Shown in pieces: positions 5,219 to 51,882 of a DNA stretch of 51,882 bases. Every line of letters starts with the position of its first letter. Within the stretch, counting starts at the first letter, position 1. A program made the position numbers and the translations under genes. Origin of the DNA: a virus; IMG/VR virus record IMGVR_UViG_3300047393_000041, positions 64,001-115,882 of that record; one strand, 5' to 3'. The notes beneath the pieces are model-generated. The model worked only from the letters and a program-made list of their open reading frames with translations, was not told where the DNA came from and did not search any database.

Positions 5219-5298
5219 AAGGGAGTGTCAGTTATAATAACATATAAACAAATTAAGTATATAATCGTAGAGTTAATGTTACTATACTATTTACTTAG

Positions 5299-5306
5299 CA
5301 AATATA
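5299..5306 (-). promoter_or_regulatory. Candidate -7 box for the lysis-fibre operon
   Basis: The minus strand reads TATATTTGCTAA, a perfect TAnnTTTG box of the Bacteroidota primary sigma factor. It shares TTTGCTAA with the stronger promoter at 25131-25164. It lies about 80 bp upstream of the start at 5218 and downstream of the terminator at 5412-5455, where a new promoter is needed. The -33 region about 19 bp upstream reads GTTC, not TTTG, so this is only half a match. The remaining 247-bp gap shows nothing else I can interpret. Confidence 0.35.
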
Positions 5307-5411
5307 ATTGTTTTATTAATGCTATGAACATATGTAGTAAAATTACACATCATAATATAGCATAAGTTAAAATTATTTTTTATGTATTTATCATTACATA
5401 ATGTATGTTAT

Positions 5412-5455
5412 TTTAAACAAAAAGAACGTATATGATTGTAATAACATACGTTCTT
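5412..5455 (-). terminator. Rho-independent terminator after the cargo operon
   Basis: On the minus strand AAGAACGTATG pairs with CATACGTTCTT (one two-base bulge in the downstream arm), with a ten-base loop. It is followed directly by TTTGTTT. It begins 11 bp after the stop codon of the 1595-residue protein and so ends the long capsid-to-cargo transcript before the lysis genes. Confidence 0.8.
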
Positions 5456-5465
5456 CTTATTTAGA

Positions 5466-40340: not shown

Positions 40341-40375
40341 ATAAAACAAAAACTCCCCTAGTAAACTAGAGGAGT
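40341..40375 (-). terminator. Strong rho-independent terminator after bead-protein genes
   Basis: On the minus strand ACTCCTCTAG pairs with CTAGGGGAGT (ten pairs with one G-U), with a TTTA loop, followed by TTTTTGTTTT. It lies about 45 bp beyond the stop of the 213-residue bead protein. The transcript upstream of it contains TTTCCGAGAA, repeated near another hairpin in the 51.7-kb region. Confidence 0.88.
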
Positions 40376-41870: not shown

Positions 41871-43037
41871 TTAAATATAAGAACACGATCCACCTATCTT
41901 TGTGGTAATACCTAATGTATTTCCATTTAAATTCCAGCAAGATGCAATAGATCTAACTGAATTTACAGTAGCAGCTACAGTAAGTTCTTTGTTTTGCCAT
42001 AATGATATACCAGGAATTAATGTTTTTGAACTTGAATATAACACTATTGTACCAGAAGCATTAAACACTACAGAATTAGAATTACAACTAATTGTACCAT
42101 ATGTTAAACTATGACTAAACCATACTACAGGTTTTAAAACTACTGATGCTTTTCCAGCTAATGTACAAATTTTTGCTTTAGTTGTAGTGGTAGTTGTTAA
42201 TTTTTTGGTAGTAGTTGTTGTTGTGGTTAATTTCTTAGTGGTAGTCGTAGTTGTTGTTAACTTTTTAGTAGTGGTGGTAGTAGTAGTTAACTTTTTAGTA
42301 GTGGTGGTAGTGGTTAATAGTTTTTTAGTTGTTGTACTTGTAGTAGATGCTGGATAAACAACTGTCATATTTCCAGCAAATGTACAAGCAGGATCTATAA
42401 TAGGATCAACTAAAACTCTAACTGAGTAACCATATTGACCAGCCTTTAGAGGTAAATAAGTTCTCCAAACCCAATCATTATTTGCCTCGATGTGAAAAGT
42501 TTCTATACCCTCAGCAGTTACTGTAGAACTCCACAACATTAATTCTTTACCAAGATCTGTAAATTGTGGACCACTAAGGTATGAAATTATAGCTCCAGCT
42601 GGAAGAGCTGTAAATCCACTACTGTTAGTAGCAGTGTTATTTGGAGCATCCCAATGAGCAATTCCTGTCTCTCTAAGTTTATCACCTAAATTTCCAGTTT
42701 CATTAGTTACATACTCGAGTAACTTAAAAAATTCATCACTCGATGGGATATGATATCCAACTGGTGCAAGTTTTTTACGTAATTTTGTATCTGTTTTTGA
42801 TGCTTCATTCCATATTCCTGCAACTGCATACCAGTTGTATAATTTACCATAAATTGCTCCATTTGCTGGATCATTTTTATAATAACACCAAGCTCCAGTT
42901 GTTAAATTTTTCCAATATGTTGGATTTGTTACTTGAGGAATTATTGTACCATCAGTATATTTAGACACATCTAAATTTTTAGCTGACCATTGTTGTGTAC
43001 CTATCTGTACTGTGGGTAATAATAATGCTGTTGCCAT
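41871..43037 (-). CDS. FSU-paralogous-type lectin-like domain plus poly-Thr repeats and bead
   Basis: Residues of about 8-210 of this 388-residue protein match the Fibrobacter succinogenes major paralogous domain pattern: IGTQQWSAKNLDV, GAWCYYKNDPANGAIYGKLY, NWYAVAGIW, GYHIPSSDEF, SSGFTALPAGA, LWSSTV and GYSVRVLVD. Then come C-x-F-x-G (ACTFAGN), a tandem run of KKLTTTTTTT decapeptides (about residues 235-285), another C-x-L-x-G unit (CTLAGKA), and a bead ending TKIGGSC. The FSU-type fold is often extracellular and ligand binding, so a host-surface binding role is plausible. The gene lies between two GPF-domain genes but lacks that domain. No signal peptide is present, fitting a virion protein. 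Confidence 0.78.
   Translation of the reverse strand: MATALLLPTVQIGTQQWSAKNLDVSKYTDGTIIPQVTNPTYWKNLTTGAWCYYKNDPANGAIYGKLYNWYAVAGIWNEASKTDTKLRKKLAPVGYHIPSSDEFFKLLEYVTNETGNLGDKLRETGIAHWDAPNNTATNSSGFTALPAGAIISYLSGPQFTDLGKELMLWSSTVTAEGIETFHIEANNDWVWRTYLPLKAGQYGYSVRVLVDPIIDPACTFAGNMTVVYPASTTSTTTKKLLTTTTTTKKLTTTTTTTKKLTTTTTTTKKLTTTTTTTKKLTTTTTTKAKICTLAGKASVVLKPVVWFSHSLTYGTISCNSNSVVFNASGTIVLYSSSKTLIPGISLWQNKELTVAATVNSVRSIASCWNLNGNTLGITTKIGGSCSYI
42185..42345 (-). repeat. 30-bp tandem repeat encoding KKLTTTTTTT
   Basis: About five units of 30 bp encode Lys-Lys-Leu followed by six or seven Thr. The units are imperfect at the DNA level (different ACN codons, TTA/CTA Leu), so they have diverged while keeping the peptide. 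The unit count may change by recombination or slippage. Confidence 0.8.
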
Positions 43038-48388: not shown

Positions 48389-48406
48389 GGTTTTATATTA
48401 AGAAGT

Positions 48407-48445
48407 TAATAAAAAGGGGAGAGAGTGTTTTACTCATCTCCCCTT
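48407..48445 (-). terminator. Strong rho-independent terminator after the 395-residue structural gene
   Basis: On the minus strand AAGGGGAGA pairs with TCTCCCCTT (nine perfect pairs). It is extended by GAGT/ACTC after a one-base bulge, with loop AAAAC and a following TTTTATTA tract. This is the most stable simple hairpin in the window and separates the capsid genes from tail/fibre genes. Confidence 0.9.
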
Positions 48446-48477
48446 AGTATTAGGAATTTATTATTTTCTACTTATCC

Positions 48478-50436: not shown

Positions 50437-50464
50437 TAAAACTAGCTACTTAAATAGCAGCTAG
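50437..50464 (-). terminator. Hairpin with short U tract overlapping the stop of the post-capsid gene
   Basis: On the minus strand CTAGCTGC pairs with GTAGCTAG (eight pairs including one G-U), with a 7-nt loop containing the TAA stop, followed by TTTTAAAAAT. It is probably a partial terminator that reduces expression of downstream genes. Confidence 0.5.
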
Positions 50465-51418
50465 TTTTTTAGTTTTTAATTTTTGTTCTAATATCAATAA
50501 CTCATCTTGGTTATCATCATCAGCTAAGAATCTAATTAAATCATCTTCATCTTTTGCCACTTCATATTCACCTTCATAAACTTTACCATTAGGTTTAATT
50601 CTATATACTGAATGTGCTGTAGCTTGTTTAACAAGATCTCTAATGTGAAGTAAATCATCTTTCATGTTAGCAAATCTGTTAAACACTTCAACTGGATTTA
50701 AGCCTGAATATTTACCATTCTTAAATTCTGTTTGTTTTAACATGTTATCTACTTGATTGTAAACAACTTCTTCTTTTGTTTCTTCTGTTACTGGAAGACC
50801 TAAAAGTCTTGCAACTTTTTTCTTCTTATCAGGAGTCATAGAATCAAACATTACAATTGCTTTATTAATCAATTGTTTTTTCTTAAATATTACAGCATTT
50901 TCAATTTCATCATCTACAACATAAAACTGTGTGTCAGCAGGATATTCTCCTCTTTCCCAAGCTTGATGACTTGATGCAATTGTAGGGTGTACTCTCAACC
51001 ATGAAAAAGCTATTTCTTGAAAAGGAACTGATAGATCAAAGAAATTATCACCATCTAATAATTTAACTGATTGCACATGTGACTGATCATTCGTAGAAGT
51101 TGATAAACCATAGTTCCAGAATTGTGAACGAGGTCCTAAATCAATATCTCCTAAATCATATTCAAGTTTTGTCTTAAGAGCTCTAACTCTTTCAATTTCT
51201 AATTCTCTTTCTAAAGGATCTGAGATTCGTTTAATATAAGCAGCATTTTCATCTAATCCTGTTCTATACTTACCATCTAATTCTTTATACGGATACTTGA
51301 AAACTCCTGTTCCAGGGATTCTTGTCATTCCTTTTTGTGCTAGTCCACTATCCATTGTCTGAAGTTGTGAGCTATTGAATTCTCTTTTTATTGTAGAGAT
51401 TTTACCTGTCTTTGCCAT
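50450..51418 (-). CDS. Conserved capsid-module protein following the tRNA
   Basis: This 322-residue, charged, mostly helical protein starts MAKTGKISTIKREFNSSQLQ and has FKYPYKELDGKYRTGLDENA, GPRSQFWNYGLSTSTN and FSWLRVHPTIASSHQAWERG. The C-terminus is acidic then basic (DEDDLIRFLADDDNQDELLI). It lacks membrane segments and known catalytic motifs. Conserved proteins directly after the major capsid gene in crAss-like phages include auxiliary capsid proteins, so an auxiliary capsid or internal role is plausible. It starts 36 bp beyond the tRNA, so mRNA and tRNA are likely parts of the same primary transcript, needing processing. Confidence 0.7.
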   Translation of the reverse strand: MAKTGKISTIKREFNSSQLQTMDSGLAQKGMTRIPGTGVFKYPYKELDGKYRTGLDENAAYIKRISDPLERELEIERVRALKTKLEYDLGDIDLGPRSQFWNYGLSTSTNDQSHVQSVKLLDGDNFFDLSVPFQEIAFSWLRVHPTIASSHQAWERGEYPADTQFYVVDDEIENAVIFKKKQLINKAIVMFDSMTPDKKKKVARLLGLPVTEETKEEVVYNQVDNMLKQTEFKNGKYSGLNPVEVFNRFANMKDDLLHIRDLVKQATAHSVYRIKPNGKVYEGEYEVAKDEDDLIRFLADDDNQDELLILEQKLKTKKLAAI

Positions 51419-51453
51419 AATGTAGTTTAATTAATAATGTTTGGTTTTATTAG

Positions 51454-51527
51454 TTGCGTGGGATGGATTCGAACCACCGACCTCTAGGTTATGAGCCTAG
51501 CGAGCTAACCGCTGCTACTACCACACG
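51454..51527 (-). tRNA. tRNA with anticodon CAU (Met or Ile2), irregular D arm
   Basis: The minus strand folds as a 74-nt tRNA. The acceptor CGTGTGG pairs with CCACGCA except for a C1-A72 mismatch. The anticodon arm is CTAGG-CTCATAA-CCTAG (five perfect pairs, anticodon CAT at 51493-51491). The T arm is GGTGG-TTCGAAT-CCATC, and the discriminator is A, with no encoded CCA. The D arm is weak: TAGC faces GCTC with a mismatched first pair and one extra base before it. The C1-A72 mismatch is an initiator tRNA trait, yet the anticodon stem lacks the three G-C pairs. It could serve as elongator Met, initiator, or lysidine-modified Ile tRNA. It lies between capsid genes, so it is probably cut from the structural transcript. 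Confidence 0.85.
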
Positions 51528-51529
51528 AG

Positions 51530-51731
51530 TTGTAGAGTGGTCCCACCGAAGGAACCTGAACATGGATACTATCCATTTCAACACTCTGTCACTTAGTTAC
51601 GTTGCTATGCAAGAGGCTTGACTAAGTATATTTGAGATCAATCCCCTCTAGGAGGGAGAGGAGGTGAGGGGATCTTTCTCGGAAATATTGAGTTACTCTG
51701 GGACGCTGTTCTTATGGATAGCGTAGTAACT
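51530..51731 (-). ncRNA. Structured non-coding stretch between capsid gene and tRNA
   Basis: About 200 bp without an open frame hold at least five inverted repeats, far more G/C rich than the surroundings. The stems (plus-strand positions) are: 51691-51697 with 51725-51731 (AGTTACT/AGTAACT), enclosing ACGCT/AGCGT (51703-51707, 51720-51724); 51641-51648 with 51666-51673 (ATCCCCTC/GAGGGGAT); 51591-51597 with 51621-51627 (ACTTAGT/ACTAAGT); and a three-way junction closed by 51534-51538 with 51583-51587. The junction contains GGTCCC/GGAACC and TGAA-ATGGA/TCCAT-TTCA hairpins. No U tract follows the main stems, so it is not a simple terminator. It may be a phage RNA, a processing or stability element, or a regulator of the next gene. 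I recognise no known family. Confidence 0.6.
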
Positions 51732-51742
51732 ACTCTTTATTT

Positions 51743-51882
51743 TTAGAATTGTGGAATTTCCTCAATCAACACAGTTCTTGACAAATCTTCAATAAATACA
51801 TCACATCTGTCTTTCATCCAGATTTCGTATCCTGGGAATTTGTTAGCACTTGACATACCTTGAGATTTAGCAAAACCTAAGT
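51743..51882 (-). CDS. C-terminus of putative major capsid protein
   Basis: The last 46 codons of a minus-strand gene are present, reading GFAKSQGMSSANKFPGYEIW and ending VLIEEIPQF before TAA. The rest lies beyond the right edge. Position upstream of the connector and tail genes in a crAss-like order, and resemblance of this ending to crAss-like major capsid proteins as I recall them, suggest the HK97-fold capsid protein. The frame is open to the edge in standard code. Without the N-terminal part the identity remains probable, not certain. It is followed by the structured non-coding stretch, which may protect this abundant mRNA's 3' end. Confidence 0.62.
   Translation of the reverse strand, partial: LGFAKSQGMSSANKFPGYEIWMKDRCDVFIEDLSRTVLIEEIPQF

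Follow-up and report, generated by a model that had tools for sequence, protein, structure and literature searches.

We identified a modular, structured RNA, encoded on the sense strand and kept by compensatory base change, that occurs in single copy at one fixed junction in a family of crAss-like phages, after the gene for the major capsid protein (MCP). We observe its structure, conservation, strand and place, and infer its activity: with a probability of about 0.5, it would act as an intercistronic element, setting the 3' end of the capsid mRNA and protecting it. The element is not described in the open-access literature that we searched. It belongs with the intercistronic and 3'-UTR structured RNAs of phages, and its constant core, the three-way junction that we name module D, is a new RNA motif.

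The window, meaning the whole stretch of 51,882 nucleotides that was analysed, covers positions 64001-115882 of a virus record 115,882 bases long; the coordinates below are positions in the window. The record has a direct terminal repeat of about 126 bases (record bases 1-126 = 115757-115882) and belongs to the linear class in IMG/VR; based on this repeat, it is probably a complete genome that closes into a circle, with a length of about 115.76 kb. The larger genes around the element are all on the minus strand, in the order MCP gene end, structured interval, tRNA-Met(CAU), a 34-nt leader, which is the A+T-rich and unstructured 3' flank of the tRNA, and a gene of the structural operon encoding a 322-aa protein (50450-51418, minus strand). 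The MCP gene is truncated at the window end, so that its 3' end (51743-51882, minus strand; stop codon at 51743-51745) is included, and the first ~126 bases of the record duplicate the stretch holding this 3' end. A first-pass annotation of the same DNA had located the RNA between a capsid gene and a tRNA, which is where we find it (the tRNA-Met occupies 51453-51527, minus strand, and is the sole tRNA detected in the genome), and had looked to crAss-like genomes for relatives. Profile searches bear out both labels. A homologous full-length MCP matches PHROG 11589, "major head protein" (E 3e-32), and the MCP family profile matches the PhicrAss001 MCP, gp32 (7qof; E 1.8e-11), although a single-sequence MCP search of the PDB returned no match. 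A crAss-like (Crassvirales) origin of the phage is thus supported by the match to a crAss-type MCP profile. The gene neighbourhood also resembles that of PhicrAss001, where gp32 is followed by gp33, the positional equivalent of the 322-aa gene. Pfam terminase and DNA_pol_A models had no match in the genome, and no Shine-Dalgarno sequences were seen in its gene leaders.

On the minus (sense) strand, positions 51528-51742, between the MCP stop codon and the tRNA, form four modules, namely the hairpins A, B and C and the three-way junction D. The minus-strand RNA of 51526-51745 folds with -62.9 kcal/mol (z -4.61), a stability reached by 0 of 200 shuffles; the z-score of the opposite (plus) strand is -2.4, versus -4.6 for the sense strand. 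All stems described in the first-pass annotation are present, and the interval is, as described there, free of open reading frames (none of at least 60 aa overlaps it) and raised in G+C content (0.43 versus 0.31 for the window). The interrupted stem of that description is module A (51690-51735, minus strand), a hairpin with the conserved apical motif GCU-NNCCRU(NN)NAGAWC-AGC; A is optional in the family, and a U run follows it in many relatives but not in the window. Its "two stems of 8 and 7 bp" are our modules B and C. Module B (GAUCCCCUC/GAGGGGAU; 51634-51682, minus strand) is a CC-GAGA...UCUC hairpin with a purine-rich internal loop, a C-rich inner helix and a 17-nt pyrimidine apical loop, CACCUCCUCUCCCUCCU (51650-51666, minus strand), an unpaired segment that refines the earlier description. 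Within the window's clade this C-rich loop hardly varies; it includes UCACCUCCU, as in the 3' end of 16S rRNA, and its wider consensus, UCCCWCC, recurs in more divergent members and is missing from a short-loop form of B. Module C (ACUUAGU/ACUAAGU; 51591-51627, minus strand) contains an inner UUGC-AUA-GCAA hairpin, swapped for UUGU-GUAA-ACAA in relatives, and is also optional, as modules C2, C3 and C4 can stand in for it. The three-way junction, module D (51533-51588, minus strand), consists of P1 with 6-7 bp, a P2 arm, and P3 with 5-6 bp, closed by the loop UUCGGU (UUYRNU in the family).

No known RNA family covers the element in Rfam, the search proposed at first pass: at the gathering score, Rfam 15 yielded only tRNA matches outside the element, and a scan at E<=10 added nothing over it but sub-threshold chance matches. 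The same search on twelve divergent relatives gave no match except one tRNA. Module D has no match to the tRNA model (RF00005) even at E 10 and no ARAGORN call. A hammerhead ribozyme was considered and rejected, as the CUGANGA and GAAA core is absent from the window and from the divergent D sequences that were read, and Rfam gives no match.

Homologous intervals were collected using the 322-aa gene as an anchor, with 322-aa gene and MCP queries taken from successive clades and the best 80 matches per search. This resulted in at least 314 complete intervals between the MCP and 322-aa genes, from redundant IMG/VR contigs, of which at least 205 are distinct. Their layout is A - B - (C3, C2, C or C4) - D - (tRNA) - (HNH gene), in about 47 pattern-defined module combinations that mostly keep one fixed order. 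Automatic calls depart from this order in six intervals only; among these, L046 and L048 have C4, elsewhere a free module, inside the P2 arm of D, while the remaining exceptions look like misplaced calls. Module content differs even between neighbouring genomes with nearly identical proteins.

Module D is retained in about 200 of the collected intervals (314; 205 distinct). Strict rules detect it in 184 of the 205 distinct intervals, and most of the other 21 show it by eye, with a mismatch or a variant loop; these counts are approximate, since the D finder misses or misplaces some copies under strict rules. True absences are L338, L469, L370, L376 and L457. The D slot of L338, a 21.6-kb fragment, holds a tRNA-Thr-like sequence (Rfam tRNA, 45.7 bits), that of L469 a tRNA-Thr, that of L370 an odd tRNA and that of L376, by our reading of the sequence, an apparently decayed tRNA, while L457 has one hairpin only at the junction. 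This replacement of D by a tRNA falls in a deep branch. With our covariance model R1, a single D was detected in the genome that contains the window, and each of 18 positive relatives likewise gave exactly one; the negatives include L340, L351 and L332, in which D is still present but has a variant loop (UUUGAU or GUUAAA), as well as L370 and L338 with their tRNA-like gene and tRNA, respectively. Across the 314 collected intervals, D is always at the MCP junction, and no other copies of the modules tested were found in the window's genome.

The tRNA is a far less constant part of the junction. A Met-tRNA is present in 32 of the 205 distinct intervals, which rules out its presence at every junction, and 152 of the 184 intervals with a strictly detected D have no tRNA. 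The structured RNA persists without the tRNA, and the tRNA therefore cannot be the reason for the RNA; release of the tRNA, offered at first pass as a role for an RNase-processing platform, is not its main role. When a 503-bp region was searched against the phage collection, only tRNA-Met genes matched.

Covariation, also suggested at first pass as a check, places D far above shuffled and slid controls, and A and B above all shuffles. This strong pairing and compensatory change among relatives agrees with the original view of a conserved multi-stem RNA instead of a single terminator. In a structure-blind MAFFT alignment of D (A5, 54 sequences), 93.9% of the cells are paired, versus 64% when shuffled, and 156 cells are two-sided, versus a shuffled mean of 36 and at most 51 in slid controls; all 11 pairs (seven in P2 and four in P3) show two-sided compensatory change. 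The model-fitted alignment A6, which is structure-biased by construction, gives 274 two-sided cells versus 71, and in a set of 98 sequences for which D was the sole anchor, the count is 248 versus 59 (shuffle maximum 76). The shuffles disregard phylogeny, but the slid controls preserve relatedness and stay far lower. P1, counted from its ends, is paired in 94 of 94 sequences at positions 2-6; because extraction of D required P1, only pair exchanges are informative for this helix, and whole-pair exchanges are frequent at positions 5 and 6. A family-wide RNAalifold run on B plus D did not recover B, as it mixed the two B forms; split by form, B covaries, with 26 two-sided cells versus 6 in shuffles (maximum 14) for the short-loop form and 31 versus 9 (maximum 15) for the long-loop form. 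Module A has 46 versus 17 (maximum 25). Finally, P2 and P3 together contain 107 G-U wobble cells versus 5 A-C cells, an excess unexpected for a DNA cruciform or for the opposite strand; selection therefore acts on the sense RNA.

Distant relatives fill the same slot with simpler structures. In PhicrAss001 (MH675552), a strong hairpin, AAAAGGGGAGGGAAAUUCUCCCUCUCCUUUUUCUUUUUU, and then a U run follow MCP gp32. Like the element, this hairpin is stable, lies on the sense strand and separates the MCP gene from the next structural gene; however, it is a single G+C-rich hairpin with a U run and lacks the internal loop of B, module D, the exchangeable modules and the tRNA. The group of Leptolyngbya phage Lbo-JY46 (26-29% MCP identity) has a short interval after the MCP gene, with a single terminator-like hairpin at the junction in L290, L291, L293 and L294, accompanied by a U run in L290 and L294, and weak structure only in Lbo-JY46 itself. 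Within the family, L313 and L349 carry terminator-like hairpins in place of B. Judging from these hairpins, the slot after the MCP gene is commonly a place for 3'-end formation, which the window's family appears to have elaborated.

In the proposed model, the element, which fills the intercistronic space that follows the MCP gene on the late transcript, would give the capsid mRNA an abundance and a stability different from those of the remaining structural operon. B may act as a stable 3'-terminal hairpin or as a double-strand-specific cleavage site, D as a compact and perhaps tRNA-like site for recognition and cleavage, or as a block, and the optional modules as further barriers; the tRNA, where present, would travel in the same processed spacer. 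The simple 3'-end hairpins in the slot of distant relatives and the tRNA that takes the place of D in L338, L469 and L370 favor this model. Two observations count against it: the window has no U-run terminator after A, and the letter conservation in the loop and junction of D and in the C-rich loop of B hints at more than a passive exonuclease barrier needs, possibly indicating a specific partner. Of the four functions offered at first pass, a 3' stabiliser of the capsid mRNA and an RNase-processing platform would fit best, while a free-standing noncoding RNA and a leader for the next gene are weaker candidates.

A specific form of this 3'-end explanation, which we put forward as tentative, is that D is a tRNA-like element without a D-arm, in front of which RNase P cuts, punctuating the operon as a real tRNA would. 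P1 would then be the acceptor stem, P3 the T-arm and UUYRNU a T-loop-like loop. RNase P reportedly tolerates loss of the D-loop and needs a T-loop or similar loop (PMC4919913). Among 157 distinct D sequences, P1 and P3 total 11-13 bp in 151 and 12 bp in 79, the spacing from P3 to P1 is 0-2 nt in 152, and the loop reads UUYR followed by A in 112, with U,U,C,_,_,U as its invariants by alignment (54 sequences); a tRNA occupies the D slot in L338 (Rfam tRNA, 45.7 bits), L469 and L370. The UUYR pattern is, however, partly imposed by the D finder, which also favoured long P1+P3 totals, and the fifth loop base is G, C or U in 29% of cases, whereas true T-loops have A. The junction linker varies from 0 to 3 nt, there is no 3' CCA, and the tRNA model does not match D even at E 10. 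It is a more speculative and rather unlikely extension that D is a D-armless, tRNA-derived mimic by which host RNase P would release a stabilised capsid mRNA, with tRNA and mimic interchanging in the slot.

Several other explanations are less likely than the 3'-end model. A partial transcription terminator or attenuator, lowering expression downstream of the capsid gene, would account for the terminator-like hairpins found exactly here in PhicrAss001 and the Lbo-JY46-like relatives, and for the T5 run in 46 of 205 intervals, often directly after A. It is nevertheless doubtful, as no U run follows D, the most conserved part, and classical terminators exist elsewhere in the same operon; no G+C-rich hairpin with a U run, nor any other terminator-like site, was found in the window's interval, where an intrinsic terminator is accordingly rejected. 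If the element were released as a separate small RNA that acts in trans, such as a decoy that, through the C-rich loop, poses as the anti-Shine-Dalgarno end of 16S rRNA or captures a host or phage protein, this could explain why that loop, with its UCACCUCCU, varies so little within the window's clade and is found again as UCCCWCC in more divergent members. We consider this unlikely given the short-loop form of B without the motif, the C-to-A and A-to-G changes inside the mimicked stretch, and a genome whose leaders have no Shine-Dalgarno sequences to regulate. The first and last of these points exclude anti-Shine-Dalgarno mimicry as a family-wide property, and where the 16-mer of the B loop matched other viral contigs away from the junction, no hairpin accompanied it and the matches appear fortuitous.

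The median distance of 31 nt from the end of D to the next start codon, when the tRNA is absent, would suit a leader acting in cis on the 322-aa gene, for instance a riboswitch or a protein-binding site; but in several members D is separated from this gene by inserted tRNAs and HNH genes, weakening the leader function suggested at first pass, and no alternative anti-terminator or sequestered start signal was seen, so that such a leader is highly improbable. It is still harder to credit that homing endonucleases encoded nearby have spread the optional hairpins as mobile DNA. In 16 intervals the array is flanked by HNH-type genes, the module combinations are numerous (about 47), and C4, free-standing elsewhere, is nested in the P2 arm of D in L046 and L048, yet the modules tested are confined to one site in the window's own genome, module order is nearly fixed, and the G-U excess and covariation of D point to a function at the RNA level.

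We compared the element with known phage RNAs. Phage T7-type RNase III sites consist of a helix, an asymmetric internal loop and a helix between phage genes. Module B resembles them in this arrangement, but has shorter helices and, in much of the family, a conserved C-rich loop. PeSLs of T4-type phages are mobile stem-loop cassettes that carry early promoters and are dispersed. The element shares with PeSLs the interchangeable stem-loop modules between conserved phage genes, but occurs at a single late junction, with one copy per genome. GOLLD and ROOL RNAs are found in proximity to tRNAs and are represented in Rfam, so the absence of an Rfam match leaves them likewise not supported. These large structured phage-linked RNAs (PMC12286853) are much longer than the element, which contains no match to them. 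Theta ribozymes are HDV-like, with a cleavage site within 5 nt of the 3' end of a tRNA (PMC10879173). They are similar to the element in being structured RNAs that adjoin a phage tRNA and have a proposed role in processing; however, the element is 5' of the tRNA, the wrong side for a theta ribozyme, the 3' flank of the tRNA is A+T-rich and unstructured, and there is no Rfam ribozyme match, so this candidate was rejected. Non-tRNA substrates of RNase P (tmRNA, 4.5S RNA and MALAT1-type RNAs; PMC4919913) possess a stack resembling acceptor stem plus T-arm, with a T-loop-like loop and the D-arm missing. In contrast to these, D has no detectable tRNA homology and a six-nucleotide loop, and is a putative substrate.

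Hundreds of environmental crAss-like contigs thus carry, in one fixed place, a structured RNA that is strongly supported and belongs to no Rfam family, located downstream of the gene for what should be the phage's most needed product. The element offers an entry to the question of how long late operons without Shine-Dalgarno signals set capsid expression apart, and it constitutes a natural series of exchangeable RNA parts. The covariance model R1 can serve as a marker of this phage family in metagenomic and metatranscriptomic data.

The junction is also a hot spot for mobile genes, as HNH-type genes are inserted on either side of the RNA: between the RNA and the 322-aa gene in L017, L019, L022, L054, L066, L072, L213, L238, L256 and L318, and between the MCP gene and the RNA in L009, L329 and L369. 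One family member (L201; MCP 87%) occurs in a MAG contig, JACIXZ010000023.1, labelled Tissierellales, a bacterial label that is probably a binning artefact. Its D (3596-3668 of L201) is of unrelated sequence, with P1 GGAGGGG/CCCCUCC and loop UUCGAU, and B is absent.

The tRNA-Met(CAU) genes at the junction (window, L007, L039, L040 and other loci) have C.A, the pair in the window, G.A or U.U as the first acceptor pair, and in some of them the anticodon stem contains GGG:CCC. Both features, the mismatch at the first acceptor position and GGG:CCC, are hallmarks of bacterial initiator tRNA; a phage-encoded initiator tRNA beside the capsid gene would, if true, be unusual.

Elsewhere in the window, the structural region encodes a protein with a Fib_succ_major domain (41871-43037, minus strand; Pfam PF09603, E 8e-31), a hint of a Bacteroidota-type host. 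The structural operon contains two classical intrinsic terminators, ACUCCUCUAG-UUUA-CUAGGGGAGU-UUUU (40352-40375, minus strand) and AAGGGGAGA...UCUCCCCUUUUU (48389-48477, minus strand), so the phage does use intrinsic terminators at other sites. A 247-nt gap with a G+C content of 0.20 (5219-5465, minus strand) has strong predicted hairpins, including a 20-bp stem, and a fold z of about -5 (mononucleotide shuffles), and is possibly a second structured or terminator region.
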